Shown here in pieces: positions 34,307 through 60,360 of a stretch of 64,000 bases of DNA. A program made the position numbers and the translations under genes. Source of the stretch: Halothermothrix sp. (GTDB taxonomy: Bacteria > Bacillota > Halanaerobiia > DY22613). The DNA is taken from NCBI GenBank assembly GCA_016841825.1, contig JAENYK010000004.1, positions 248,001-312,000 on the forward strand, given 5' to 3'. The notes below the pieces were generated by a model. The model ran no database searches, was not told where the DNA came from, and was given only the letters and a program-made list of their open reading frames with translations. Every line of letters starts with the position of its first letter. The first letter of the stretch is position 1.

Positions 34307-35425
34307 TCATCTAGAACCATACCGTTCAAATAAAACATTCAGAATTCTCCCTGTCGCCTTCCCATCACCATAGGGATTAACTGCATTAGCCATCGCAAAG
34401 TATTTTGCTGAATCATCCAATAACTCACCAGTACGTGTATATATCTCTCCTCGATTAACTCCCACAACCTTAACCGTTCCGGCTTCAACAGCTTCAGGGC
34501 GCTCAGTTTCTGTCCTTAATACTAACACAGGTTTCCCAAATGCTGGTGCCTCTTCCTGAATACCTCCAGAATCAGTCAACATCAGATAACTCTTATTTAA
34601 AAGGTTTGCAAAAGGTTTATAGCTTAACGGTTCAATTAAATGAATTCTATCTTTACCACCTAATATTTCGACAGCATACTCTCTAATCTTCGGATTGAGA
34701 TGCATAGGAAAAACCACTTCCACATCATTACGTCTAGCAACAATGTCGTCAACTGCATTAAAAATATTCACCATCGGTTGACCCCAGTTTTCACGTCGAT
34801 GAGCTGTTAGAACAATAATTCTTTTATTCTGAAAATCAATTTTATTTAAAACTGGATCTGCGAACTTATAATCTTCTTCAATTACTTGAAACAATGCATC
34901 TATGACAGTGTTTCCCGTAACAATAATATTTTCTTCAGGTTTACCTTCTTTCAAAAGGTTTTCCTTATTACCTTTGGTTGGAGCAAAATGAATATTGGCC
35001 AATATGCCCGTGAGTCTTCGATTCATCTCTTCAGGATATGGTGAATATATGTTGCCACTTCTAAGGCCTGCTTCAACATGTCCTACTGGTATCTGGTTAT
35101 AGAAAGCGGCTAGAGAAGCTGCAAAAGTAGTAGTAGTATCTCCATGAACCAGAACAATATCTGGTTGAGCTTCTCTTATAATTGTATCAATTCCGGATAT
35201 TACCTTTGTCGTTATTTCACCTAAAGTTTGTCCATGCTTCATAATATTCAAATCATAATCCGGAATGATAGAAAATAGCTCTAGAACAGCATCTAACATT
35301 TCTCTATGCTGTGCAGTAACACAAACTATTGATTGGAAACGATCATCTTGACTAAGTCCATTAACTAATGGTGCCATTTTGATAGCCTCAGGCCTCGTAC
35401 CAAATACTGTCATTACTCTAATCAT
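34307..35425 (-). CDS. wecB: UDP-N-acetylglucosamine 2-epimerase (non-hydrolysing)
   Basis: Converts UDP-GlcNAc to UDP-ManNAc for surface glycans. The 372-residue GT-B fold protein has VFGTRPEAIKMAPLV, VHGDTTTTFAASLAA, HVEAGLRSG, TAHRRENWG and DSGGIQEEAPAFGKPVLVLR. ATG at 35425, 7 nt after GGAGGT; the upstream TTG lies in that site. No ManNAc dehydrogenase (wecC) is in the window. Confidence 0.96.
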   Translation of the reverse strand: MIRVMTVFGTRPEAIKMAPLVNGLSQDDRFQSIVCVTAQHREMLDAVLELFSIIPDYDLNIMKHGQTLGEITTKVISGIDTIIREAQPDIVLVHGDTTTTFAASLAAFYNQIPVGHVEAGLRSGNIYSPYPEEMNRRLTGILANIHFAPTKGNKENLLKEGKPEENIIVTGNTVIDALFQVIEEDYKFADPVLNKIDFQNKRIIVLTAHRRENWGQPMVNIFNAVDDIVARRNDVEVVFPMHLNPKIREYAVEILGGKDRIHLIEPLSYKPFANLLNKSYLMLTDSGGIQEEAPAFGKPVLVLRTETERPEAVEAGTVKVVGVNRGEIYTRTGELLDDSAKYFAMANAVNPYGDGKATGRILNVLFERYGSR

Positions 35426-35570
35426 AACAGGTACCTCCAATCATTATATTCATCCACTATTAGTATACCTATCATACAATTATTCTATCTTTTACAACAA
35501 AAACCTTTTTCATTTGGTTAATTTTCATATTCTTAACCTAAATCATTCTCCCATTATAGAAAAGCCGAAT

Positions 35571-39648: not shown

Positions 39649-40530
39649 CTACCAATTTACAATCAAATCATGAATAATCTTAATCCCAGCTGCATAAGTG
39701 AATATCTTCTCCCAGTTGATATTCTTAACCTCTTCTATCTGAATAATATCGCCATCTTGCAAATACAAAAGTGAACCAGTATTATCATTTTCCAGATAAT
39801 CTTCAAGGTTTATAATCTCCGCCTCGTGAATTTCTGCTTTATGACTTATTTTCACCTTTGTTAAATTGGCTCTGTCAGTCGGTCCTCCTGCCATTGCTAA
39901 AATATCAGCAGGAGTTGTATTCTTATCTAATGGATAATTACCAGGATTTCTAACTTCCCCCAAGATATAAACCTCACGTTTTACATAGGGGATATAAATA
40001 ACATCTCCATTATTTAAGACATAATTTTGGTGACCACCCTGATTTAAAAGTCTGTCTACATTTACCTGAAGATTGGATTCTTCCCGGGTTAATGTTGCTT
40101 CTTCTAAGAGAGCAGCATCTTCGTTAAGACCAGCCATTGCCAGAACTTCTAACAATCTAGTTCCAGGTTTTATTTGAAATATTCCCTGATTTTGCACTGA
40201 CCCAATAACGCTAACCGTTATCTTCTTAAACTCCCTAACCATTACTGTTACTGTTGGATTCTTAATATATTTCTCCAGGCGTTGGCTGATCTCATTCTGC
40301 AACTCTATAGGTGTCAGTCCTTCAGCTTTTACTTCATTAATTAACGGAAACGAAATATATCCATCATCTCTAATGGTTATTATTTTTGTTAAATCGGGAT
40401 TATTCCACACTGCGATCTCAATAACATCATCTGTACCCAAGACATATCTCGATTCATCTGCAAAAACCGTACAAGAAAAAATTATAATAAACAGCAATAT
40501 TAATAATATATTCTTTCTAAATTTTAACAT
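39649..40530 (-). CDS. Wza-like polysaccharide export protein
   Basis: A 293-residue exported protein with an N-terminal signal (either lipidated at Cys near IFSC or cleaved at VFA-DE), a poly_export domain at about residues 25-105 (YVLGTDDVIEIAVWNNPDLT) and two SLBB-like domains (VIGSVQNQGIFQIKPGTRL and ILGEVRNPGNYPL). It lacks a long C-terminal pore helix of E. coli Wza. ATG at 40530 with GGAGTG. First gene of the wza-wzc-kinase-phosphatase-galE unit behind a SigH-type promoter. Confidence 0.92.
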   Translation of the reverse strand: MLKFRKNILLILLFIIIFSCTVFADESRYVLGTDDVIEIAVWNNPDLTKIITIRDDGYISFPLINEVKAEGLTPIELQNEISQRLEKYIKNPTVTVMVREFKKITVSVIGSVQNQGIFQIKPGTRLLEVLAMAGLNEDAALLEEATLTREESNLQVNVDRLLNQGGHQNYVLNNGDVIYIPYVKREVYILGEVRNPGNYPLDKNTTPADILAMAGGPTDRANLTKVKISHKAEIHEAEIINLEDYLENDNTGSLLYLQDGDIIQIEEVKNINWEKIFTYAAGIKIIHDLIVNW

Positions 40531-40583
40531 GCACTTCACTCCGTTCAACAATTTTATCTTTACTAATTCAGATATATTCTTTA

Positions 40584-40612
40584 TAATTCGCTAAAGAGAG
40601 CAAATGTCCTTC
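40584..40612 (-). promoter_or_regulatory. SigH-type promoter of the capsule operon
   Basis: GAAGGACAT, 11 nt, AGCGAATTA on the minus strand, about 50 nt before the Wza-like start. One base differs from RnAGGAwww (C for w). Confidence 0.65.
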
Positions 40613-42196: not shown

Positions 42197-43468
42197 TTAA
42201 AACTTAACTTCCAACTTGGCTTCCGCAGTAGTCTCATCCTCCGGATCATACTCTTCAGGCAAGATCCATTTATACTGAAAACTTAAGACCGAAGACTCTG
42301 CGATATTAAAATTCAATCCTAAATCTATCATAGTCTCCAAAATATCTTCAGATACTTGCTGATCCTGGGTGGTACTATATACCGCTTTCAAAGTAGCCTG
42401 ATCAACCAAGCCCAACTCTAAACCAGCCGAAGTAGTAATTTGAGATTTCTGATTCTCCAACTGATAGGTTGCATTCATCGCTTTTCCATTATCACCTAGC
42501 TTTAGTCCAAACACAGCTTTATTAATCTGCTCATCATTACCTTTAACTGATACATAGTCAGCAAAAAGTGAAGAAGAATTAGTAGGCCGCACTGCTAACC
42601 CTAATTGTTTAATAATTATATCATCAAGATCATTTATTTCAGGTCTTACCTCATTCTGAGCGGCATCGGCCAACCAAACAGGCACTGACTCAGGATCTAT
42701 AGTAGGCACTTCACTGGAGATTATTCCATACCCTGCATTAAAACTGGCAAAAGAGAATGGATTGTAAGCTAACTGAAACGTCTTGTGGGCTTTACTACTG
42801 GAATCTTCTCCCTCTAAAGTCCTTTTGTAATCAGCATTTAAAAGCATCCCGGGTAACAAATTTAATTCAATTCCGGCATTTTGAGTAACAAATTGGGATT
42901 TGTCAGTGAGCAATAGACTATCTGATAAGTCAAGTTTCTCTGCTGTATCAAACCCATAAAATACTTTCAAACCTTCCAATAGTTTACTCTGCGCTTCTAT
43001 AGTATAGTTGGCCGGATGTTGATTATCTTGTTCACTGTCACCCATAGACTGAAGTCCAAAAACTCCCTGAGTATCGGTATCCTGTATCTCATATAATACC
43101 AATTCCATCAATTCCGAAGGTAAAAGATCATACTGCCCAACGATTTTCCCCTTCTCCGTATCCATCAATGAATCCAAATTACCCGATAAATATGAGTTAA
43201 ATAGATCATAGTCCAAATTCATCAGGTCTGAAACCTTCATATCTGGCTGTAAAGCATATAAATAACTTTGTAGCGTATCAACGGCCTGTGAACTAGCATC
43301 ATTGGATATCTCATCTACTGCTTCAACATCAGCTTCAGTAACCTGAGCATAATCTTCAGATACTCCAAAGACACCAAAATCAGCCTGGAGGTGTGGCGAG
43401 ACAGAAATAAGCATAAAAGTCATTAGAATCATTATCCAGGTAAACACAGTCTGCCTCTTTCGTCTCAT
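42197..43468 (-). CDS. Probable outer-membrane beta-barrel protein
   Basis: A 423-residue exported protein: N-terminal signal (MRRKRQTVFTWIMILMTFML, cleavage about residue 29), an acidic helical section to about 120, then amphipathic strands ending AEAKLEVKF with the C-terminal Phe typical of barrel proteins. No SLH domain or named family seen. ATG at 43468 with GGAGGG; it lies 3' of ompM and has its own SigH-type promoter and terminator. Confidence 0.68.
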   Translation of the reverse strand: MRRKRQTVFTWIMILMTFMLISVSPHLQADFGVFGVSEDYAQVTEADVEAVDEISNDASSQAVDTLQSYLYALQPDMKVSDLMNLDYDLFNSYLSGNLDSLMDTEKGKIVGQYDLLPSELMELVLYEIQDTDTQGVFGLQSMGDSEQDNQHPANYTIEAQSKLLEGLKVFYGFDTAEKLDLSDSLLLTDKSQFVTQNAGIELNLLPGMLLNADYKRTLEGEDSSSKAHKTFQLAYNPFSFASFNAGYGIISSEVPTIDPESVPVWLADAAQNEVRPEINDLDDIIIKQLGLAVRPTNSSSLFADYVSVKGNDEQINKAVFGLKLGDNGKAMNATYQLENQKSQITTSAGLELGLVDQATLKAVYSTTQDQQVSEDILETMIDLGLNFNIAESSVLSFQYKWILPEEYDPEDETTAEAKLEVKF

Positions 43469-43518
43469 CAACACTCCCTCCTTTCAGTGGATTACTATAA
43501 GTATATTGTCTCTATATA

Positions 43519-43548
43519 TAATTCTATGTCAGTATATAAAAATCCTTC
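43519..43548 (-). promoter_or_regulatory. SigH-type promoter of barrel gene 42197
   Basis: GAAGGATTT, 12 nt, ATAGAATTA on the minus strand, about 50 nt before the ATG at 43468. Full match to RnAGGAwww/RnnGAATww. Confidence 0.72.
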
Positions 43549-43613: not shown

Positions 43614-46235
43614 TTAGAAACTGAAGCTCAGACCAGCTTTAACCTGTTGAACATGAGAGTCATAACCTTCAACTTTATTCATTTGATCAACAATGTCATG
43701 GTCCTCTTCATAGGTGTAAGCATCGCCGAATACTTTCTTGTTCTGGTAAGACAGGGTAGCAGCAATATCTTCAGTTACTGCATAGTCCAGACCAGCAGAT
43801 AAAGTAGCTACTTGACCTACGATATACTCATCAGATTCTTCATCAATCTCATGGTTAGCATATGCGTAACCAGTATTCAGAGTTAAAGCATCGTAGCTCT
43901 TACTCAGGTCAACTTTACCACCATAGTTCATCATGTCATTCAGCATCTTGAAGTCAACAGCTGTATCAACATCTACACCAAATACGTTGTAAGCATCTGG
44001 GTCAACAGAAGCGGTGATAGTGCGGTCGCCATCTAATACTTGTTCAAAATCAACAGCAAAAATACTGTACTCAGCACCTGCACTCAATACTGTCTCTTCA
44101 TCTACAACATCATGACTTGCACCAAGACTCAGGATACCCATAGTTAAATCGGCACCAAAGTTCAGTTCTTCGTTCTCTTTGTCAGCTAAACTGTAGTCAT
44201 AAGCAGCATTTACACTCAGACCAGGAACAAAGGTATCCCAGTTCATGTTAGCGTAAATATTGTTATACAGATCATCAGCTTCCCATTCATCAATCTCTAG
44301 CTTGTTGTCAAAGATATCATATTGATAACGATCTACATCATCAGTACCTGTAGTGATATCATAAACAGTTTCCTCTTCGCCATAAACTGGATCGTCAGCA
44401 TAGTCGGTATATTGATCATACTTGTAACCTGCAGCTAATTCAATACCGAACAGGTCTTTGCTCAATTCAACATTGCGTTTTTGACGATCAGCTTTAGTGT
44501 CAGCATCTCTGTTACGCAGGTCTTGCTCAAAGCTACCAGTTAAACCGAAACCGAGCAGGTTCAGTTCATCTAAAGTAACACCAGCGTTAATAATATCCTC
44601 ATCATCAGTTACGGAAGTGTAACTACCATTAACGGTCAAAGGACCAACAGGCAGGCTAGCACTTACATCATAACCTGAGTCACCATAGTCACCTTCGTCA
44701 TATAGACCAACAAAGTTCTCATCAATGATTCTGTAGCCAGCAGCCAACTCAATAGGACCTAAGTTACGGCTAACAGCAAGTCTAACCAGTTTGTTCTCAG
44801 CTACATCTTTGTCACTAACAGCTACTGTAGTATTAATATCAGTACCCAGAACGTTAAATTCGGAGTCGATACCAGCTACAAAAGCTTCATCAAAGATATT
44901 GTCAACACCAACAAACAGTTTGGAACCTAACAGACCTAAGTCTTGTTGAACGGCCAATACGTCTTTTACAGTGTAATCTTTGGCTACATCTTCAGTACCC
45001 GCTGGGATTAAACCGTAAGTGCCGTCATCATAAACTTCAATACTCTTATACACCGAATAGTTCTCTGTTTCTAAATCATTATAATCAGCCTCAGTTAAGG
45101 CAAGTTTTTCATCCTGATCTACATAGTAATAGTTCTCACCATCAACTACTTTTAAGATAAAGAAGTTAGCAGCATTAGTAAAACCAGCGGCAAGTAATGC
45201 CTGTTCAGCTGCATCTTTAGTATCTTCATCCATCAATAACTGCTCAGTATCTTCGTTAGCAGTCTTGTTGCGAGCTAATACATAGATGCTCTCGCCAGCG
45301 TTAACAACAACGCCATCATAAGTTAAATCAGGATCGCCCAGCAGATAATCATTCATGGAAACTGCTTGTTCATTATCGATAGTAGCAGTCAATGCATCAG
45401 TAGTAATAGTAGCATTGAAGTCATCGAAATCGAAGCCTAAAGTGTCATCAAAACCACTGTCTTCAGCAATATCATTTCCATAATCCTCAGTATTTTCATC
45501 TACACTCCAGGTACCAAATACATCTTTACCCAGGGTCATGTTAACATCTAAAACAATAGGTGCTTTGTTAACAGCTACGTTTAGACCTAAAGTATGTCTA
45601 AAGACATCATCATCAGTAGTAAACTCGTCAGAACTCAGGTCAAATGGATCAGTGTAAGCAGTGCCTTCGATTGTAGTTTTGGTTAAGTTAAGACCATATT
45701 CACCACCGAAAGTAACTACTTCCAATGCATCCAGACGTCCTTCTGCAGCAGCCATGCGCTCTAACAGACCATCAACGTCTTTGCCCATAGCTTCCAGTTC
45801 AAATTTAAACTCTAAGGACAATGCTTCAACGATACCGGCAACTTCTTCTGCCTGAATAGCAGTTAAGTTTTCTGGCATATCAGCTTCAGGAGAATACTTA
45901 GCTAACAGGCTCTTGAAGATAGCGATAACATCTTCTGCCTGACCTGCAGTTAAACCATTCTCAACAGCTTCAACTTTCTCGTTCAGAAGTGCAGTTTCAG
46001 CTTCTACTGCATCCAATACACGACCAACCAGAACAGCAATTTGGTAACGAGTCAAAGTATCATTACCTTTAAAGGTGCCATCTGGGAAACCAGTGATAAT
46101 ACCAGTAGCGGACAATGTGTTTACAGCATCATATGCCCAGTGGCTAGCAGGTACGTCACTATAAGGGCCTGCCATAACAGGCGCAGCTACGGCAAAAATA
46201 ACTGCCAGAGCAACTAATAAAACGATCTTCTTCAT
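43614..46235 (-). CDS. OmpM-like SLH-domain outer-membrane porin
   Basis: An 873-residue protein: signal peptide 1-22 (APVMA), one SLH domain (about 23-75: YSDVPASHWAYDAVNTL, GFPDGTFKGNDTLTRYQ), an alpha-helical coiled coil to about 175, and a long barrel rich in Asp and Gly ending VKAGLSFSF. In diderm Firmicutes OmpM tethers the outer membrane to peptidoglycan through SLH and forms pores. The ATG at 46235 behind AAGGGGG gives the signal peptide at the N terminus; the ATG at 46280 would add 15 polar residues. The long leader with four promoters implies very high or finely tuned expression. Confidence 0.92.
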   Translation of the reverse strand: MKKIVLLVALAVIFAVAAPVMAGPYSDVPASHWAYDAVNTLSATGIITGFPDGTFKGNDTLTRYQIAVLVGRVLDAVEAETALLNEKVEAVENGLTAGQAEDVIAIFKSLLAKYSPEADMPENLTAIQAEEVAGIVEALSLEFKFELEAMGKDVDGLLERMAAAEGRLDALEVVTFGGEYGLNLTKTTIEGTAYTDPFDLSSDEFTTDDDVFRHTLGLNVAVNKAPIVLDVNMTLGKDVFGTWSVDENTEDYGNDIAEDSGFDDTLGFDFDDFNATITTDALTATIDNEQAVSMNDYLLGDPDLTYDGVVVNAGESIYVLARNKTANEDTEQLLMDEDTKDAAEQALLAAGFTNAANFFILKVVDGENYYYVDQDEKLALTEADYNDLETENYSVYKSIEVYDDGTYGLIPAGTEDVAKDYTVKDVLAVQQDLGLLGSKLFVGVDNIFDEAFVAGIDSEFNVLGTDINTTVAVSDKDVAENKLVRLAVSRNLGPIELAAGYRIIDENFVGLYDEGDYGDSGYDVSASLPVGPLTVNGSYTSVTDDEDIINAGVTLDELNLLGFGLTGSFEQDLRNRDADTKADRQKRNVELSKDLFGIELAAGYKYDQYTDYADDPVYGEEETVYDITTGTDDVDRYQYDIFDNKLEIDEWEADDLYNNIYANMNWDTFVPGLSVNAAYDYSLADKENEELNFGADLTMGILSLGASHDVVDEETVLSAGAEYSIFAVDFEQVLDGDRTITASVDPDAYNVFGVDVDTAVDFKMLNDMMNYGGKVDLSKSYDALTLNTGYAYANHEIDEESDEYIVGQVATLSAGLDYAVTEDIAATLSYQNKKVFGDAYTYEEDHDIVDQMNKVEGYDSHVQQVKAGLSFSF

Positions 46236-46444
46236 TATAAATTTCCCCCTTGATTGTTTTTGAAATTTTTGTGTTATCATAGGTTAATAAACTATAGTTC
46301 GTTAATCAACCTTTCAAGCGGAAATTTATGAATGAGTTGCCATGTTTCCTCATCCATTACATTCAGCTCTATTCAATTGTCAATGAACCAGTTTATTAGT
46401 TAACTTATCATTCACCCTTTCAAAGTCTCTAACGGCAATCTCAG

Positions 46445-46461
46445 GGCACCTCCTTCCTCCC
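46445..46461 (-). promoter_or_regulatory. Shine-Dalgarno-like block in the ompM leader
   Basis: GGGAGGAAGGAGGTGCC on the minus strand lies about 210 nt upstream of the ompM start and has a long match to the 3' end of 16S rRNA. No ATG frame follows; a TTG frame of eight codons is possible. It resembles the STAB-SD elements that protect long-lived Bacillus mRNAs. Confidence 0.45.
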
Positions 46462-46529
46462 GTGAAACCTTTGGTAAATGATAAACTTTAAAAACTAAAT
46501 TGAGTTAGTATCAGACAGACTAAATTATA

Positions 46530-46559
46530 ATATTCTCTTTCCCCTTTGAAAACTCCTGC
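46530..46559 (-). promoter_or_regulatory. SigH-type ompM promoter, proximal (P4)
   Basis: GCAGGAGTT, 12 nt, AGAGAATAT on the minus strand; one base differs in the -35 box. Confidence 0.65.
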
Positions 46560-46726
46560 CTGTCTCACAATAATATTTATTCCTCTTTTTAGTAATTTAG
46601 ACCTAACTGAGGCAACTTCCCCACATGAGCTATCTTCCTATTGCTTCAGCATGTCCCTGGTCATCAAATATGCGTTTTCTAGAGGAATCCTTTAAGGAAC
46701 GAGTGACTAAATATCACACTTATAAC

Positions 46727-46755
46727 TTATTCGTCAAAGCTTTTTGAATTCCTTC
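46727..46755 (-). promoter_or_regulatory. SigH-type ompM promoter P3
   Basis: GAAGGAATT, 11 nt, GACGAATAA on the minus strand; full match to RnAGGAwww/RnnGAATww. Confidence 0.75.
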
Positions 46756-46827
46756 ATTTTCTTCAGTCACTTTTTGCTAATTCGCTCAAAGTCTTATAAA
46801 TAAATTATTGTTTTTAACACTCTTTTT

Positions 46828-46856
46828 ATATTCTATAAATCTTTTTGAATTCCTTC
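46828..46856 (-). promoter_or_regulatory. SigH-type ompM promoter P2
   Basis: GAAGGAATT, 11 nt, ATAGAATAT on the minus strand; full match, and its -35 block repeats that of P3 101 bp away. Confidence 0.75.
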
Positions 46857-46952
46857 AAAAGTAAGGAAGGTACTATTTCCCATCCAAATATGAGATTAGA
46901 ATTGAATCATTCCCATATATCCAAAAGACATACTCTTTGAAGGTACTTATAT

Positions 46953-46981
46953 TAATTCGCTATACCTCTATAAACTCCTGC
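46953..46981 (-). promoter_or_regulatory. SigH-type ompM promoter, distal (P1)
   Basis: GCAGGAGTT, 11 nt, AGCGAATTA on the minus strand, starting 15 bp past the yqgF stop; one base differs in the -35 box. Confidence 0.65.
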
Positions 46982-46996
46982 TTATTTTTGTGATTT

Positions 46997-47407
46997 TTAT
47001 TTACATATTTTCGGCATATCTCCCAGATAGCGTTTTAACAAAATAATCGCTACCAGATCATCGACAGGTCGATCAGGTGTCTGCAGACCAAGAGGCAACA
47101 ATCTCTTCAAACCTTTTGGAGGATTCAATTCATAATATAGATTTCTGGCTTCCAGAGTGGAGTAAGCTTCATTTACCATCTCTATATGACATCCTGGTAG
47201 TTCTTCAGTAAGTCGCTTCAAAAACTTCTTAGATAGGGTCCCATCTCCCAGAATCACTCTACTAATCTGATATTTTCTATACCAGTCCATAATTTTCCGG
47301 AGAAAGTCCTGTGTTAATACCACCTGATGGTCTATTACTGTCTTTTGCTCTGAATCATAAATCGCTACACCTATTTTATCTCTACCCGGATCTATTGAAA
47401 GAATCAT
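46997..47407 (-). CDS. YqgF/RuvX-like RNase H-fold protein
   Basis: A 136-residue protein with the YqgF fold signature: ILSIDPGRDKIGVAIYD at the N terminus, the VNEAYSTLEARNLYYE stretch and RPVDDLVAIILLKRYL at the end. Family members process pre-16S rRNA or resolve junctions. It overlaps the DUF3084 gene by 4 bp and belongs to the lpt operon rather than to alaS, where the housekeeping copy usually lies; it may be a paralogue with another job. Confidence 0.82.
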   Translation of the reverse strand: MILSIDPGRDKIGVAIYDSEQKTVIDHQVVLTQDFLRKIMDWYRKYQISRVILGDGTLSKKFLKRLTEELPGCHIEMVNEAYSTLEARNLYYELNPPKGLKRLLPLGLQTPDRPVDDLVAIILLKRYLGDMPKICK

Positions 47408-48759
47408 GGCAGATCACCTACCCTGGAGATATTAAAGGTAAGGTTATCGCTGGACAAAGTATCCTCTCGCCAGATATCTTTTGAAGCCTTTACCGTTACC
47501 CGTATCTTTCCTGACTGATCTTTAATTGTTTCAATTATTTTAAAGAAATCTCCAAAAGCTATAGTTCCTACAGATCCGGCCGAGGTCACCAGTATATTCT
47601 TTTCACGAGCCTGCTCACTGACCACATCTAAAATATCTGTAATCTCTTTTTCAATTACAGATGGATTTTGATTAGAATCAATCATTTTCTCACAAATAAT
47701 CTCATCTTTTGTAAAAACCCTGTAATTAGGCTCTGTTGTGATTATAGCATCCAGAAATTCTCCAACCCAGATATTTTTCGAGGCAAATACCGCCACTAAT
47801 ATTTTTTCATTCTCTGAAGTAACTAATTCCTGGGCAATAGTTAATAGATCCTCACGATTTTCGAACTGAATGCTCCGGCCATTATTCTGCTCTTTGCGCA
47901 AATTCAACTTATATACATATTGATTAGCGCGAGCTAAAAACTCGTCAACAATCAGTTCTCCATCTTTTCTGGTACCTCCCGGAATGGTATCTAGTGACTC
48001 AATATACACAAGATCACCTTTGCGGTAAACAACGTCTTTATTATCCATAACAAGTTGAGAACCGAGAACCAAAGCATTTGATTTGACAATAACATCTGTC
48101 ATCTTATCTGTGAGTTGGTCAATCTCTTTTTGCATAGTTTTAATATCTTCTTCCAAAGATTGCTTATCATCCTGCAAAGCCAATCTCTCAGTTTCTAAGA
48201 CCTGCTTTTGAGACTCTAACTCAGTGACCTTATCTTGTAAAGAGAGTATATTATCCTCTAATTCCACTTTCGTCTGAGCCACGGTCTGATATTGGTCTTT
48301 TGTCTCATCAAGGAGATCTTTCAACTTGTTATACTCATCTTTTGTTTCGTTCAAGTCATTTTTTAAAGAGTCTCTCTCAAGCAAGATATTATTTAATTCA
48401 ACAGTAGTTTGAGCAATCTCAACCTCCATCTCTTTTACTTTGTTATTGTAGTTCTCGGTTGTATGTTTCAATAAACTGTCTTTTTCCATAACTTGTTGAT
48501 TTAAATGATTCAACTTAATTAACAGACCCTGCATATCAAAGACAGCCATTCTTACATCTTCAGAAGCTATCATCAATAATGTGATCGAAATTGTTGCAAT
48601 AAAGACTCCAGTTAAAATGGTAATAATGATGGAAGTATATTTTGGGCGAATACCAAAAATGGATAAACGCTTCTTACCAATTTTCATTCCTATCTGATCA
48701 CCAAGATAAGCAATCAGGCCACTGACCACAATAAGAGCAAATATTAAAAAGAGAAGCAT
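47404..48759 (-). CDS. DUF3084 domain membrane protein
   Basis: A roughly 451-residue protein with two N-terminal membrane helices (about 1-22 and 43-65) flanking the conserved IAYLGDQIGMKIGKKRLSIFGIRPKYT loop, a long coiled coil (about 85-220) and a C-terminal alpha/beta domain. DUF3084 proteins occur in cyanobacteria and diderm Firmicutes; function unknown. The ATG at 48759 is preferred over the GTG codons at 48774 and 48771, which crowd the ribosome site. Its place after lptF suggests a part in envelope assembly. Confidence 0.82.
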   Translation of the reverse strand: MLLFLIFALIVVSGLIAYLGDQIGMKIGKKRLSIFGIRPKYTSIIITILTGVFIATISITLLMIASEDVRMAVFDMQGLLIKLNHLNQQVMEKDSLLKHTTENYNNKVKEMEVEIAQTTVELNNILLERDSLKNDLNETKDEYNKLKDLLDETKDQYQTVAQTKVELEDNILSLQDKVTELESQKQVLETERLALQDDKQSLEEDIKTMQKEIDQLTDKMTDVIVKSNALVLGSQLVMDNKDVVYRKGDLVYIESLDTIPGGTRKDGELIVDEFLARANQYVYKLNLRKEQNNGRSIQFENREDLLTIAQELVTSENEKILVAVFASKNIWVGEFLDAIITTEPNYRVFTKDEIICEKMIDSNQNPSVIEKEITDILDVVSEQAREKNILVTSAGSVGTIAFGDFFKIIETIKDQSGKIRVTVKASKDIWREDTLSSDNLTFNISRVGDLP

Positions 48760-48786
48760 CCAGGTATTCACCACCTTCCGTAAATA

Positions 48787-51083: not shown

Positions 51084-51641
51084 TTAACCATCCTTTTTTA
51101 GGGTCAGCCTGGGGCGTCCGCTTAAGTGTATCTGTTTCAAATCAAGATCAGATGACATTCTTTCAGCTTGAATCTGATAATCATCGGCAGTGATCTCCAC
51201 CGACCCTGAAGCGACAAAATTACCTTGATTAAGGTCAATATCTACTCTATTCAAAAATAGTTCTAAATCTTCATTCATCATTGTGACTGGCCCAACCAAT
51301 TGAATCATTCCTTTGTCGGTTATCAGCCAGCCCTCTGGTGTTGAAAGTTTTTGTACAACTCTACCCTGATCTTTTAGCAGAGCGTTGAGCCCTTTATAAT
51401 TCAACTCAATATCAGTCTGTTGTACAATCTCCTCAAAATCGCTTTCAAATTTGAATCTATTCTCTTTGCCAAAATAGCTAATTTGTACATTTTCAAAACG
51501 ATTTTCGGGAATCTCTTCTACAGGTATTGCCTGATCAATTGTTTCAGGTTCTTCTGGTTCTGATATCATCGTCTTTCCCCAGAGAATAAATCCACCCAAA
51601 ACTAAGATTATTAGCAAAAATAATAAAAATTTGGAGTTCAA
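51084..51641 (-). CDS. lptC: LPS export protein LptC
   Basis: A 185-residue protein with one N-terminal membrane anchor (about 4-22) and a periplasmic LptC beta-jellyroll (FENVQISYFGKENRFKFES, SGSVEITADDYQIQAERM). It links the LptBF pump to LptA. The start codon is TTG at 51641, 7 nt after GGAGGG; no ATG gives a better N terminus. First gene of the lpt operon, behind a SigH-type promoter. Confidence 0.9.
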   Translation of the reverse strand: MNSKFLLFLLIILVLGGFILWGKTMISEPEEPETIDQAIPVEEIPENRFENVQISYFGKENRFKFESDFEEIVQQTDIELNYKGLNALLKDQGRVVQKLSTPEGWLITDKGMIQLVGPVTMMNEDLELFLNRVDIDLNQGNFVASGSVEITADDYQIQAERMSSDLDLKQIHLSGRPRLTLKKDG

Positions 51642-51666: not shown

Positions 51667-51695
51667 TTATTCTCTTTGAATCATAGATATCCTTT
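51667..51695 (-). promoter_or_regulatory. SigH-type promoter of the lpt operon
   Basis: AAAGGATAT, 11 nt, AGAGAATAA on the minus strand, about 25 nt before the lptC TTG and after the galU terminator. Full match to RnAGGAwww/RnnGAATww. Confidence 0.78.
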
Positions 51696-58188: not shown

Positions 58189-58614
58189 TTATTTATCCAC
58201 AACTGTAAACATTAGTTCTCCCTGAGATACAACTTCATCATTAACCAGGGCACGACAGTTTACTTTCGCGACATTCCTCCTGAATTTGATCATCTCTCCT
58301 TCAATTCGTAGTTGATCTCCAGGTATGACCGGTTTACGAAATCTAACATTATCAATCCCAGTAAAATAGGGTACCTTGTCAGTGCTATTCTCATCTAAAA
58401 ACATAAAACCACATACTTGAGCCATAGATTCAACAATCATCACTCCCGGCATCACTGGGTGATTAGGATAATGTCCCAGGAAAAATGGTTCATTCATGGT
58501 CACACACTTAATCCCAACGACTTTCACACCTTTTTCCAATTCAATAATTCTATCAACTAATAAAAATGGATAGCGATGAGGTAGTGAATTCAAAATCTGC
58601 TTAATATCTAACAT
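58189..58614 (-). CDS. fabZ: 3-hydroxyacyl-ACP dehydratase FabZ
   Basis: Dehydrates 3-hydroxyacyl-ACP in fatty acid synthesis and competes with LpxA for substrate. The 141-residue hotdog protein has LPHRYPFLLVDRI and the active-site GHYPNHPVMPGVMIVESMAQ (His and Glu). ATG at 58614; its start overlaps the lpxC end by 7 bp. Confidence 0.96.
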   Translation of the reverse strand: MLDIKQILNSLPHRYPFLLVDRIIELEKGVKVVGIKCVTMNEPFFLGHYPNHPVMPGVMIVESMAQVCGFMFLDENSTDKVPYFTGIDNVRFRKPVIPGDQLRIEGEMIKFRRNVAKVNCRALVNDEVVSQGELMFTVVDK

Positions 58615-59456
58615 TTTTCTTCCTCCTGTAATGAAACAATTTTTTTCGAAAGTTGCGCATTCAAACTATGGCCTGATTTGATTCCAATAAAATGTCCCAA
58701 AACTCGTCCATTTACGGCTAAGTCACCGACCATATCTAAAACTTTATGTCGAACAAATTCATCCGGATATCTCAACGGGTTAACTGTACCTTTATCGTGA
58801 ATCAACACAGCATTATCAAGGCTGCCACCCAAAGCTAATCCGCGTTTATGTAAAACTTCAATCTCGCAGGCAAAGCCAAATGTTCTGGCCCTGGCAATCT
58901 CTGCATAAAATAAATCTTCTGTTATCTCGTAATCTGCATACTGTGTTCTGATTACCGGATGGTCATAAGATAAAGTATAGGTGATCCGAAAACCATCATA
59001 AGGCAAAGCAATCAAAGTAGCATCCTTTTCCCGTACATAAATAGGTCTAGAGATTTTAATATATTGCCTGGTTTCAGCCTGCTTCTGTAAACCGGCTTTT
59101 TTAAACAGGTCAAGAAAAATAATCGCACTACCATCGGTTACAGGAGGTTCTTCCGAATCAAGCTCAATAATTAAATTATCTATCCCCGCCATAGAAATCG
59201 CTGCCATCAAATGTTCAATGGTATGGATAGACCATTGTTCTTCGGTACAACCGATAGAGGTACACCTCCTGGTTGAGACTATATTATTTGCGTGCACTCT
59301 AAGTAATGGTTTGCCAGGTAAATCAACCCGGCAAAAGAGTATTCCTGAATTTTCTGGAGCGGGTAAACAGGTTATAGTAGCATCTTGGCCAGTGTGTAAT
59401 CCAATTCCAATATAGCTAATTGGTTGAGCAATTGTCTTCTGTAATTCCAACTCCAC
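58608..59456 (-). CDS. lpxC: UDP-3-O-acyl-N-acetylglucosamine deacetylase LpxC
   Basis: Zinc hydrolase for the committed step of lipid A synthesis. The 282-residue protein has QPISYIGIGLHTGQ, metal and catalytic residues in HTIEHLMAAI, HKVLDMVGDLAV and SGHSLNAQL. GTG start at 59456 with GGGGGG 5 nt upstream. First gene of the lpx operon, behind a SigH-type promoter. Confidence 0.96.
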   Translation of the reverse strand: MELELQKTIAQPISYIGIGLHTGQDATITCLPAPENSGILFCRVDLPGKPLLRVHANNIVSTRRCTSIGCTEEQWSIHTIEHLMAAISMAGIDNLIIELDSEEPPVTDGSAIIFLDLFKKAGLQKQAETRQYIKISRPIYVREKDATLIALPYDGFRITYTLSYDHPVIRTQYADYEITEDLFYAEIARARTFGFACEIEVLHKRGLALGGSLDNAVLIHDKGTVNPLRYPDEFVRHKVLDMVGDLAVNGRVLGHFIGIKSGHSLNAQLSKKIVSLQEEEKC

Positions 59457-59498: not shown

Positions 59499-59528
59499 TT
59501 ATTCAATAATTTTATACCTATTTCCTGC
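59499..59528 (-). promoter_or_regulatory. SigH-type promoter of the lpx operon
   Basis: GCAGGAAAT, 12 nt, ATTGAATAA on the minus strand, about 40 nt before the lpxC GTG. Full match to RnAGGAwww/RnnGAATww. Confidence 0.78.
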
Positions 59529-59572: not shown

Positions 59573-60304
59573 TTAATGATATTCAATCATTTCTTTATAG
59601 CGTCTCCCTACCCAGGATTGGGGATTTTCAAAAATATTCTGTGGTGATCCTTCTTCAACAATAACCCCTTGATCCATCAAAACAATCCTGTTGGCAACTC
59701 TTCTGGCAAACGCAACTTCATGGGTTACAATTAACAGAGATTTATCCTTTTGAACTGTCAACTCTTCCATAACCTTTAACACTTCTCCTACCAAAATCGG
59801 ATCTAAAGAAGCTGTAGGTTCATCCAATAACATGAGGTCGGGATTTATAGCCAAAGCGCGGGCTATCGCTACTCGCTGCATCTGACCACCACTCAAATCA
59901 GCTGGTCGGGCATGGACAAAATCCCTAAGTTCTACCTGTTCTAGAACTTTTAAAGCCCTGGTTTCAGCCTGTTCTCTATCCCAACCCCATTTTACCAGTC
60001 CGAGCATTACGTTCTGTAATACGGTTAACCGATGAATCAGGTTAAAATTCTGAAAGACAAAACCCATATTTTTCCTCAATTCTAAGAGTTCTTTCTCTTT
60101 CAATTGATCAATTTCAATCCCTTTATATATAATTTTACCAGAATCAGGCTCTGTTAAACGGTTAATACAGCGGATCAGAGTGGATTTCCCACATCCACTC
60201 GGACCCATAATGACAACCGTTTCACCTGTAGCTACATTCAAATTAATACCTTTTAGGACTTCATGTGATCCATATGATTTTTTTAGATCAGACACTTTTA
60301 GCAT
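59573..60304 (-). CDS. ABC transporter ATP-binding protein
   Basis: A 243-residue ATPase with Walker A GPSGCGKSTLI, Q-loop FVFQNFNLIHRLTVLQNV, signature LSGGQMQRVAIARAL, Walker B LMLLDEPTASLD and H-loop VTHEVAFARRV. By sequence it resembles the amino-acid uptake (GlnQ) and LolD/MacB ATPases. The only membrane partner nearby is the 825-residue protein directly upstream (56-bp gap), and no binding protein gene is present, so an exporter or mechanotransmission role is more likely than uptake. Confidence 0.88.
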   Translation of the reverse strand: MLKVSDLKKSYGSHEVLKGINLNVATGETVVIMGPSGCGKSTLIRCINRLTEPDSGKIIYKGIEIDQLKEKELLELRKNMGFVFQNFNLIHRLTVLQNVMLGLVKWGWDREQAETRALKVLEQVELRDFVHARPADLSGGQMQRVAIARALAINPDLMLLDEPTASLDPILVGEVLKVMEELTVQKDKSLLIVTHEVAFARRVANRIVLMDQGVIVEEGSPQNIFENPQSWVGRRYKEMIEYH

Positions 60305-60360
60305 AGCACTCCCACTCTCTATATTCTCTTCTAAGAGTATTTTTACCTGTTCTCCAACAA

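Follow-up and report, generated by a model that had tools for sequence, protein, structure and literature searches.

The window, that is, the whole 64,000-nt stretch of DNA analyzed here, carries on its minus strand an ompM gene that is separated from a ruvX-like gene by a 761-bp gap. The product of this gene had been described in advance as an outer-membrane tether, an assignment that agrees with the Pfam match of its SLH domain (E = 1.2e-12) and with the match of its N-terminus to the solved SLH proteins 8bys, 8bz2, and 8bym, which we take to be Veillonella OmpM structures. Four SigH-type promoters, P1–P4, occupy the gap, and all of them lie upstream of a leader of ~200 nt that is located between P4 and ompM. 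A DUF3084 coiled-coil protein (47404-48774) is also found near the gene and is syntenic with lptB-lptG-ruvX-ompM in many relatives. The gene and the sites in front of it are as follows.

43614-46235, minus strand: ompM, 873 aa, SLH domain and presumed outer-membrane barrel (ATG at 46235)
46245-46251, minus strand: ompM ribosome-binding site AAGGGGG, 9 nt before the ATG
46524-46552, minus strand: SigA-like site overlapping P4, TTTTCA-17-TATAAT, 10/12 match, of a kind found at chance frequency in the scan
46530-46559, minus strand: P4, SigH-type promoter, GCAGGAGTT-N12-AGAGAATAT
46727-46755, minus strand: P3, SigH-type promoter, GAAGGAATT-N11-GACGAATAA
46828-46856, minus strand: P2, SigH-type promoter, GAAGGAATT-N11-ATAGAATAT
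46953-46981, minus strand: P1, SigH-type promoter, -35 box GCAGGAGTT (46981-46973), 11-nt spacer, -10 box AGCGAATTA (46961-46953)

Each of the four promoters is formed by an AGGA(A/G)TT box and a GAATWW box. P1, P2, P3, and P4 match the consensus RNAGGAWWW-N11/12-RNNGAATWW at 14, 15, 15, and 14 of 15 positions, P1 and P4 each deviating at one position. The preliminary description had placed four SigH-type promoters before the SLH-OmpM gene, and they are found on the minus strand at exactly the expected coordinates, the positions it gave being the 3' ends of the -10 boxes. The same box order and spacing had been claimed for all four; this holds for P1–P3, with spacers of 11, 11, and 11 nt, while the 12-nt spacer of P4 differs by one base. 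The 17-nt identity of P2 and P3 is also present, as the common stretch TGAAGGAATTCAAAAAG, and belongs to a 29-nt repeat with 86% agreement between its copies. No terminator-like site was seen on the same strand between P1 and ompM. Sigma-70 promoters alone were considered for this region and rejected, as a scan found 18 of them where 17.0 are expected by chance.

In Markov-1 sequences of the 760-bp region, four such SigH-type sites occur at P = 2e-4, and 400 column-permuted motifs place a mean of 0.08 sites (maximum 3) in it. Across the 64-kb window, 12 of the 16 high-scoring sites are intergenic and co-directional with the next gene, compared with a mean of 1.2 (maximum 6) for the column-permuted motifs. 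This excess needs spacers of 11–12 nt, since other spacers yield 0–3 sites. Genome-wide, the strict motif has 205 matches versus 20 for the reversed motif. As a check independent of the consensus used in these first scans, the sites were retested with a weight matrix; the training data were 34 C. difficile promoters taken from a SigH set with experimental support (PMC7438776 Table 3). Among the ~128,000 positions of the window, the matrix ranks P2 2nd, P3 3rd, P1 7th, and P4 10th. The scores (P1, 15.5; P2, 19.7; P3, 18.0; P4, 15.2) are all of the size seen in the training set, P2 and P3 lying above most of its promoters and P1 and P4 at its median. The AGGAGTT of P1 and P4 is also present at C. 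difficile lplA (PMC7438776). As judged from sequence, the identity of P1–P4 as SigH-type promoters is well supported.

The relatives compared belong to the class Halanaerobiia and include Halanaerobium, Fuchsiella, Orenia, and Natroniella. In the regions preceding 65 ompM leaders, the forward strand has 53 SigH-type sites and the reverse strand has 2, while permuted motifs give a mean of 3.05 and a maximum of 12; the sequences behind these conservation counts are related and thus non-independent observations. Spacers of 14–15 nt produce 18 matches in the same set, which is also above the permuted mean. The preliminary description had called for an alignment of ompM upstream regions, and the promoter number does vary, with no site in 29 leaders, one in 21, two in 14, and four in this window only. 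The promoter duplication it proposed is retained in part: P2 and P3 look duplicated and tandem sites recur in relatives, but the set of four is peculiar to this genome. Tandem sites in the relatives have a median spacing of 97 bp, which exceeds the ~75 bp footprint of a polymerase. In the nearest relative, the P4 block GACAGGCAGGAG is kept in the alignment and the P1 position has a counterpart as well, the P4-like site there scoring just 13. The ompM leaders of Halanaerobium are without SigH-type sites, and most have SigA-type promoters close to consensus, frequently as a tandem pair.

The genome encodes a canonical SigH (359.5 bits, above the TIGR02859 cut-off) and a second SigH-like sigma (215 bits; G000:C43:191906-192499, minus strand). 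In a survey of 31 genomes of the class, the canonical SigH is above the cut-off in 30 and the second paralogue is present in all 31. Halanaerobium keeps both paralogues, and few sigma-70 family genes were found there in the same search. The two proteins resemble each other in the stretches expected to contact the -10 and -35 boxes, and as a result the motif cannot say which of the two sigmas is used. We infer that P1–P4 are read by SigH. The presence of SigH-type promoters before ompM, as first described from the letters of the window, is backed by the experimentally based matrix, by the SigH of the genome, and by conservation in the class.

Six further SigH-type sites of the window lie 16–44 nt from the gene that follows, several of them before genes related to the outer membrane.

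35480-35508, minus strand: site before a UDP-GlcNAc 2-epimerase gene (34307-35440), 14/15, matrix rank 5
40584-40612, minus strand: site before a Wza-like gene (39649-40551), 14/15, matrix rank 11
43519-43548, minus strand: site 44 nt upstream of a porin-like gene (42197-43474), 15/15, matrix rank 1
51667-51695, minus strand: site before an lptC-like gene (51084-51641), 15/15, matrix rank 4
59499-59528, minus strand: site before lpxC (58608-59456), 15/15
60321-60350, minus strand: site before an ABC-transporter gene (59573-60304), 14/15

LpxC has been identified by Pfam and the Wza-like gene matches the Pfam family Poly_export. The porin-like gene has no match in the Pfam search; neither does the lptC-like gene, whose label comes from its position alone. 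Across the class, a SigH-type site is found at a similar distance in 12 of 29 lpxC loci, and 12 of 21 loci of spoIIAA, a classic SigH target, also have one, with none on the reverse strand in either set. Since counts of 8–9 were reached by some permuted motifs in these two groups of loci, the excess is evident without being overwhelming. None of the Halanaerobium lpxC loci has a SigH-type site. The lpxC matches in two assemblies (G017 and G001) are interrupted by an internal stop or frame break. Given the sites before lpxC and the lptC-like, porin-like, and Wza-like genes, SigH plausibly drives outer-membrane biogenesis, and a SigH regulon that includes this function is the simplest reading.

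The leader between P4 and ompM arguably outweighs the promoters in importance. Its parts are listed below.

46289-46493, minus strand: structured ompM leader RNA of two domains (covariance model R1, 57.2 bits, E = 1.4e-10)
46404-46485, minus strand: leader domain 1, a predicted fold with covarying helices 1–3, in which a 13-bp closing stem (46485-46473 with 46416-46404) surrounds a Shine-Dalgarno-like hairpin
46447-46455, minus strand: Shine-Dalgarno-like element AAGGAGGTG, 212 nt before ompM, no conserved start codon near
46332-46353, minus strand: apical hairpin ATGAG-GAAACATGGCAA-CTCAT with a near-invariant loop

When 60 leaders were aligned on sequence only, no fold emerged, while nine close leaders gave one, and the covariance model R1 was built from the leaders of these nine relatives. 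The R1 search retrieved 42 leaders at E < 1e-5, including some from high-GC Bacillota MAGs outside the class. In these 42 leaders, standard pairs occupy 92% of the pair cells (69.5% when shuffled), double-sided changes are seen in 39 of 46 pairs, and the covariation score is 0.54 as opposed to 0.05–0.12 for slid partners; since the alignment is fitted to the structure, the absolute covariation numbers lean towards it. The leader of the window alone has an MFE z of -4.34. In whole-genome searches, R1 has matches in 49 of 101 relatives, and those whose context was compared precede ompM or OMP-like genes. No Rfam 15 family matches the window or the loci of seven relatives at the gathering score. 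The ompM leader, conserved class-wide and strongly covarying, looks like a previously uncatalogued RNA family that accompanies OMP genes in several lineages. A snoZ101 match on the plus strand has been taken as chance.

In most leaders, the Shine-Dalgarno-like element of domain 1 is complementary over 11–12 nt to the usual 16S tail (a general tail and not that of this genome), while the true ribosome-binding sites of the leaders compared have mostly 3–5 nt of such complement. The stretch GGTTCATTGACAA had been considered as a boxA antitermination element; instead, it is one strand of a leader helix whose partner strand in relatives is TTGTCAATGAA. A long stem with GAG-GAAACNNGGNNA-CTC (46351-46334) at its tip makes up domain 2. 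The apical loop is near-invariant and the bases below the loop vary in pairs.

This hairpin extends beyond the class. An 18-nt pattern of it, derived from Halanaerobiia, was found in 67 of the phylum's 398 genomes, at more than 100 places in total, versus 9 places for the reversed control. At 72 of 75 distinct places sampled across the phylum, some of them in Halanaerobiia itself, the near-invariant hairpin GAGGAAACNNGGNNACUC precedes a signal-peptide gene, mostly a porin or OmpM, whose start lies 18–230 nt downstream; for random positions the figure is 21%. An SLH motif is present in 38 of these 72 genes. Written as GAGGAAACNNGGNNACTC, the hairpin stands before OMP or signal-peptide genes throughout the phylum, one genome (G199) having several copies in front of Negativicutes-type OmpM genes. 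Several of the downstream OmpMs are presumably those of Negativicutes; one OmpM of this type was checked and has the SLH domain, and another hairpin place precedes a Porin_4 protein. In family f3, the leader or hairpin is also found before non-SLH porin-like genes (one Porin_4), and therefore it is not confined to ompM. The Cyano-1 (RF01701) model, which corresponds to the Yfr2 family (PMC8400943), finds the ompM hairpin as its sole match at E up to 1 in the genome, a weak one of 22.1 bits that does not reach the 41-bit cut-off. The conserved Cyano-1 loop, GGAAACNNGG on a short stem, is present in the ompM leader and is near-invariant among leaders. This is a loop resemblance and not membership of the family.

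The sites, their conservation, the covariation of the leader, and its association with OMP genes are directly visible in the sequence, and from them the start sites, the growth-phase control, and the mechanism of the leader can be proposed. P1–P4 are probably serial promoters of SigH (or of the second SigH-like sigma) that feed one leader within a SigH-driven outer-membrane set. RNA polymerase with either sigma would load at P1–P4, and serial promoters spaced beyond one polymerase footprint would let several polymerases load at once. The up to four loading sites would raise, and possibly time, the transcription of ompM, which would amount to the dosage or growth-phase tuning that the preliminary description suggested from the promoter duplication. 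All four transcripts are expected to converge on one leader of ~285 nt. In STAB-SD leaders, such as that of Bacillus thuringiensis cry3A, a strong Shine-Dalgarno lies far upstream and has no start codon of its own. As in these, a 30S subunit may occupy the displaced strong Shine-Dalgarno of the ompM leader, and a trans factor may bind its apical loop. The core of the leader probably stabilizes the mRNA, supplies ribosomes to the weak true ribosome-binding site, or both, and the ompM unit would be a member of the SigH-driven set of outer-membrane genes.

Other explanations of the promoters have been weighed. Chance can yield single sites of such quality, and the region is AT-rich and intergenic; the permutation, spacing, strand, matrix, and conservation tests all contradict this, and a chance origin is extremely unlikely. 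A somewhat unlikely reading is that transcription comes from a single site, either P2 or P3 or else the SigA-like one overlapping P4, and that the remaining boxes are decayed duplicates. It draws on the zero to two sites that suffice in relatives, on the TATAAT overlapping P4, and on the repeat common to P2 and P3. However, both boxes and the spacer are kept in all four promoters while the intervening sequence differs, and the counterparts of the P1 position and P4 block in the nearest relative (P4-like score of 13) also argue against decay. The promoters may also be real but read by the second SigH-like sigma, acting as a dedicated envelope sigma in place of the canonical SigH. This sigma is encoded in 31 of the 31 genomes searched and its -10/-35 reading stretches are close to those of SigH, but we consider the assignment unlikely, as the sites fit a matrix of canonical SigH promoters, the canonical target spoIIAA is preceded by this motif in those genomes as well, and Halanaerobium retains both paralogues although its ompM promoters are SigA-like.

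For the leader, a large, conserved, and covarying 5' RNA with invariant loops could be a riboswitch or another ligand sensor. This is quite unlikely, because the leader has no Rfam match at gathering, no terminator or alternative fold sequestering the ribosome-binding site was seen, and the leader goes with OMP genes and not with one pathway. The conserved hairpin could instead encode a leader peptide through a small ORF (M-R-K-x-G-N/H/Y/D-S), which has an in-frame start codon in 52 of 68 leaders and whose frame is maintained in Halanaerobium with the ATG shifted. The synonymous third positions (AGG, AAA, NAC) are nevertheless invariant across the motif, in other lineages the ORF start is missing or lies in another frame, and for most starts no ribosome-binding site was seen, which makes a leader peptide very unlikely.

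If SigH drives lpxC, the porins, and ompM, the building of the outer membrane would be wired to a transition-phase and sporulation sigma. Such wiring, if true, bears on the debated question of how sporulation relates to outer-membrane gain or loss (PMC5007114). A broader proposal, possible rather than probable, is that GAGGAAACNNGGNNACUC is an ancient OMP-mRNA address in double-membraned Bacillota through which one trans factor coordinates OMP synthesis, the Yfr2 loop being the same; in Halanaerobiia this address would be coupled to a SigH outer-membrane regulon, which linked construction of the membrane to the sporulation sigma, and in Halanaerobium SigA would have taken over. The common loop across OMP leaders means that a common binder can be sought, and the hairpin could serve to mark OMP genes in genomes. 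Halanaerobium, with its swap from SigH to SigA, offers a natural experiment. Our literature searches found no account of outer-membrane control in double-membraned Bacillota and nothing relevant on SigH and the outer membrane. The Negativicutes OmpM papers examined deal with the protein and the genes and not with promoters or leaders, promoter or UTR being unmentioned in PMC10628300.

Each part of this locus can be compared with a known system. The OmpM of Negativicutes (Veillonella, and Mep45 of Selenomonas) also has an N-terminal SLH domain and is encoded in the same kind of genomic cluster (PMC5007114). The ompM hairpin and Cyano-1/Yfr2 (RF01701) are alike in the apical loop GGAAACAAGGAAAC on a stem, but the Yfr2 are separate cyanobacterial small RNAs whereas the ompM hairpin is part of an mRNA leader. 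STAB-SD and the ompM leader both have a strong Shine-Dalgarno far from any start codon; in the ompM leader it lies in a conserved hairpin within a large fold, to which a second conserved hairpin is added. The SigH (Spo0H) promoters of B. subtilis and C. difficile have the same boxes and the same 11–12-nt spacer as P1–P4, and spoIIAA has a SigH-type promoter here as in those systems. On the other hand, B. subtilis and C. difficile are single-membrane organisms without outer-membrane targets, whereas here four SigH-type sites stand before an outer-membrane gene.
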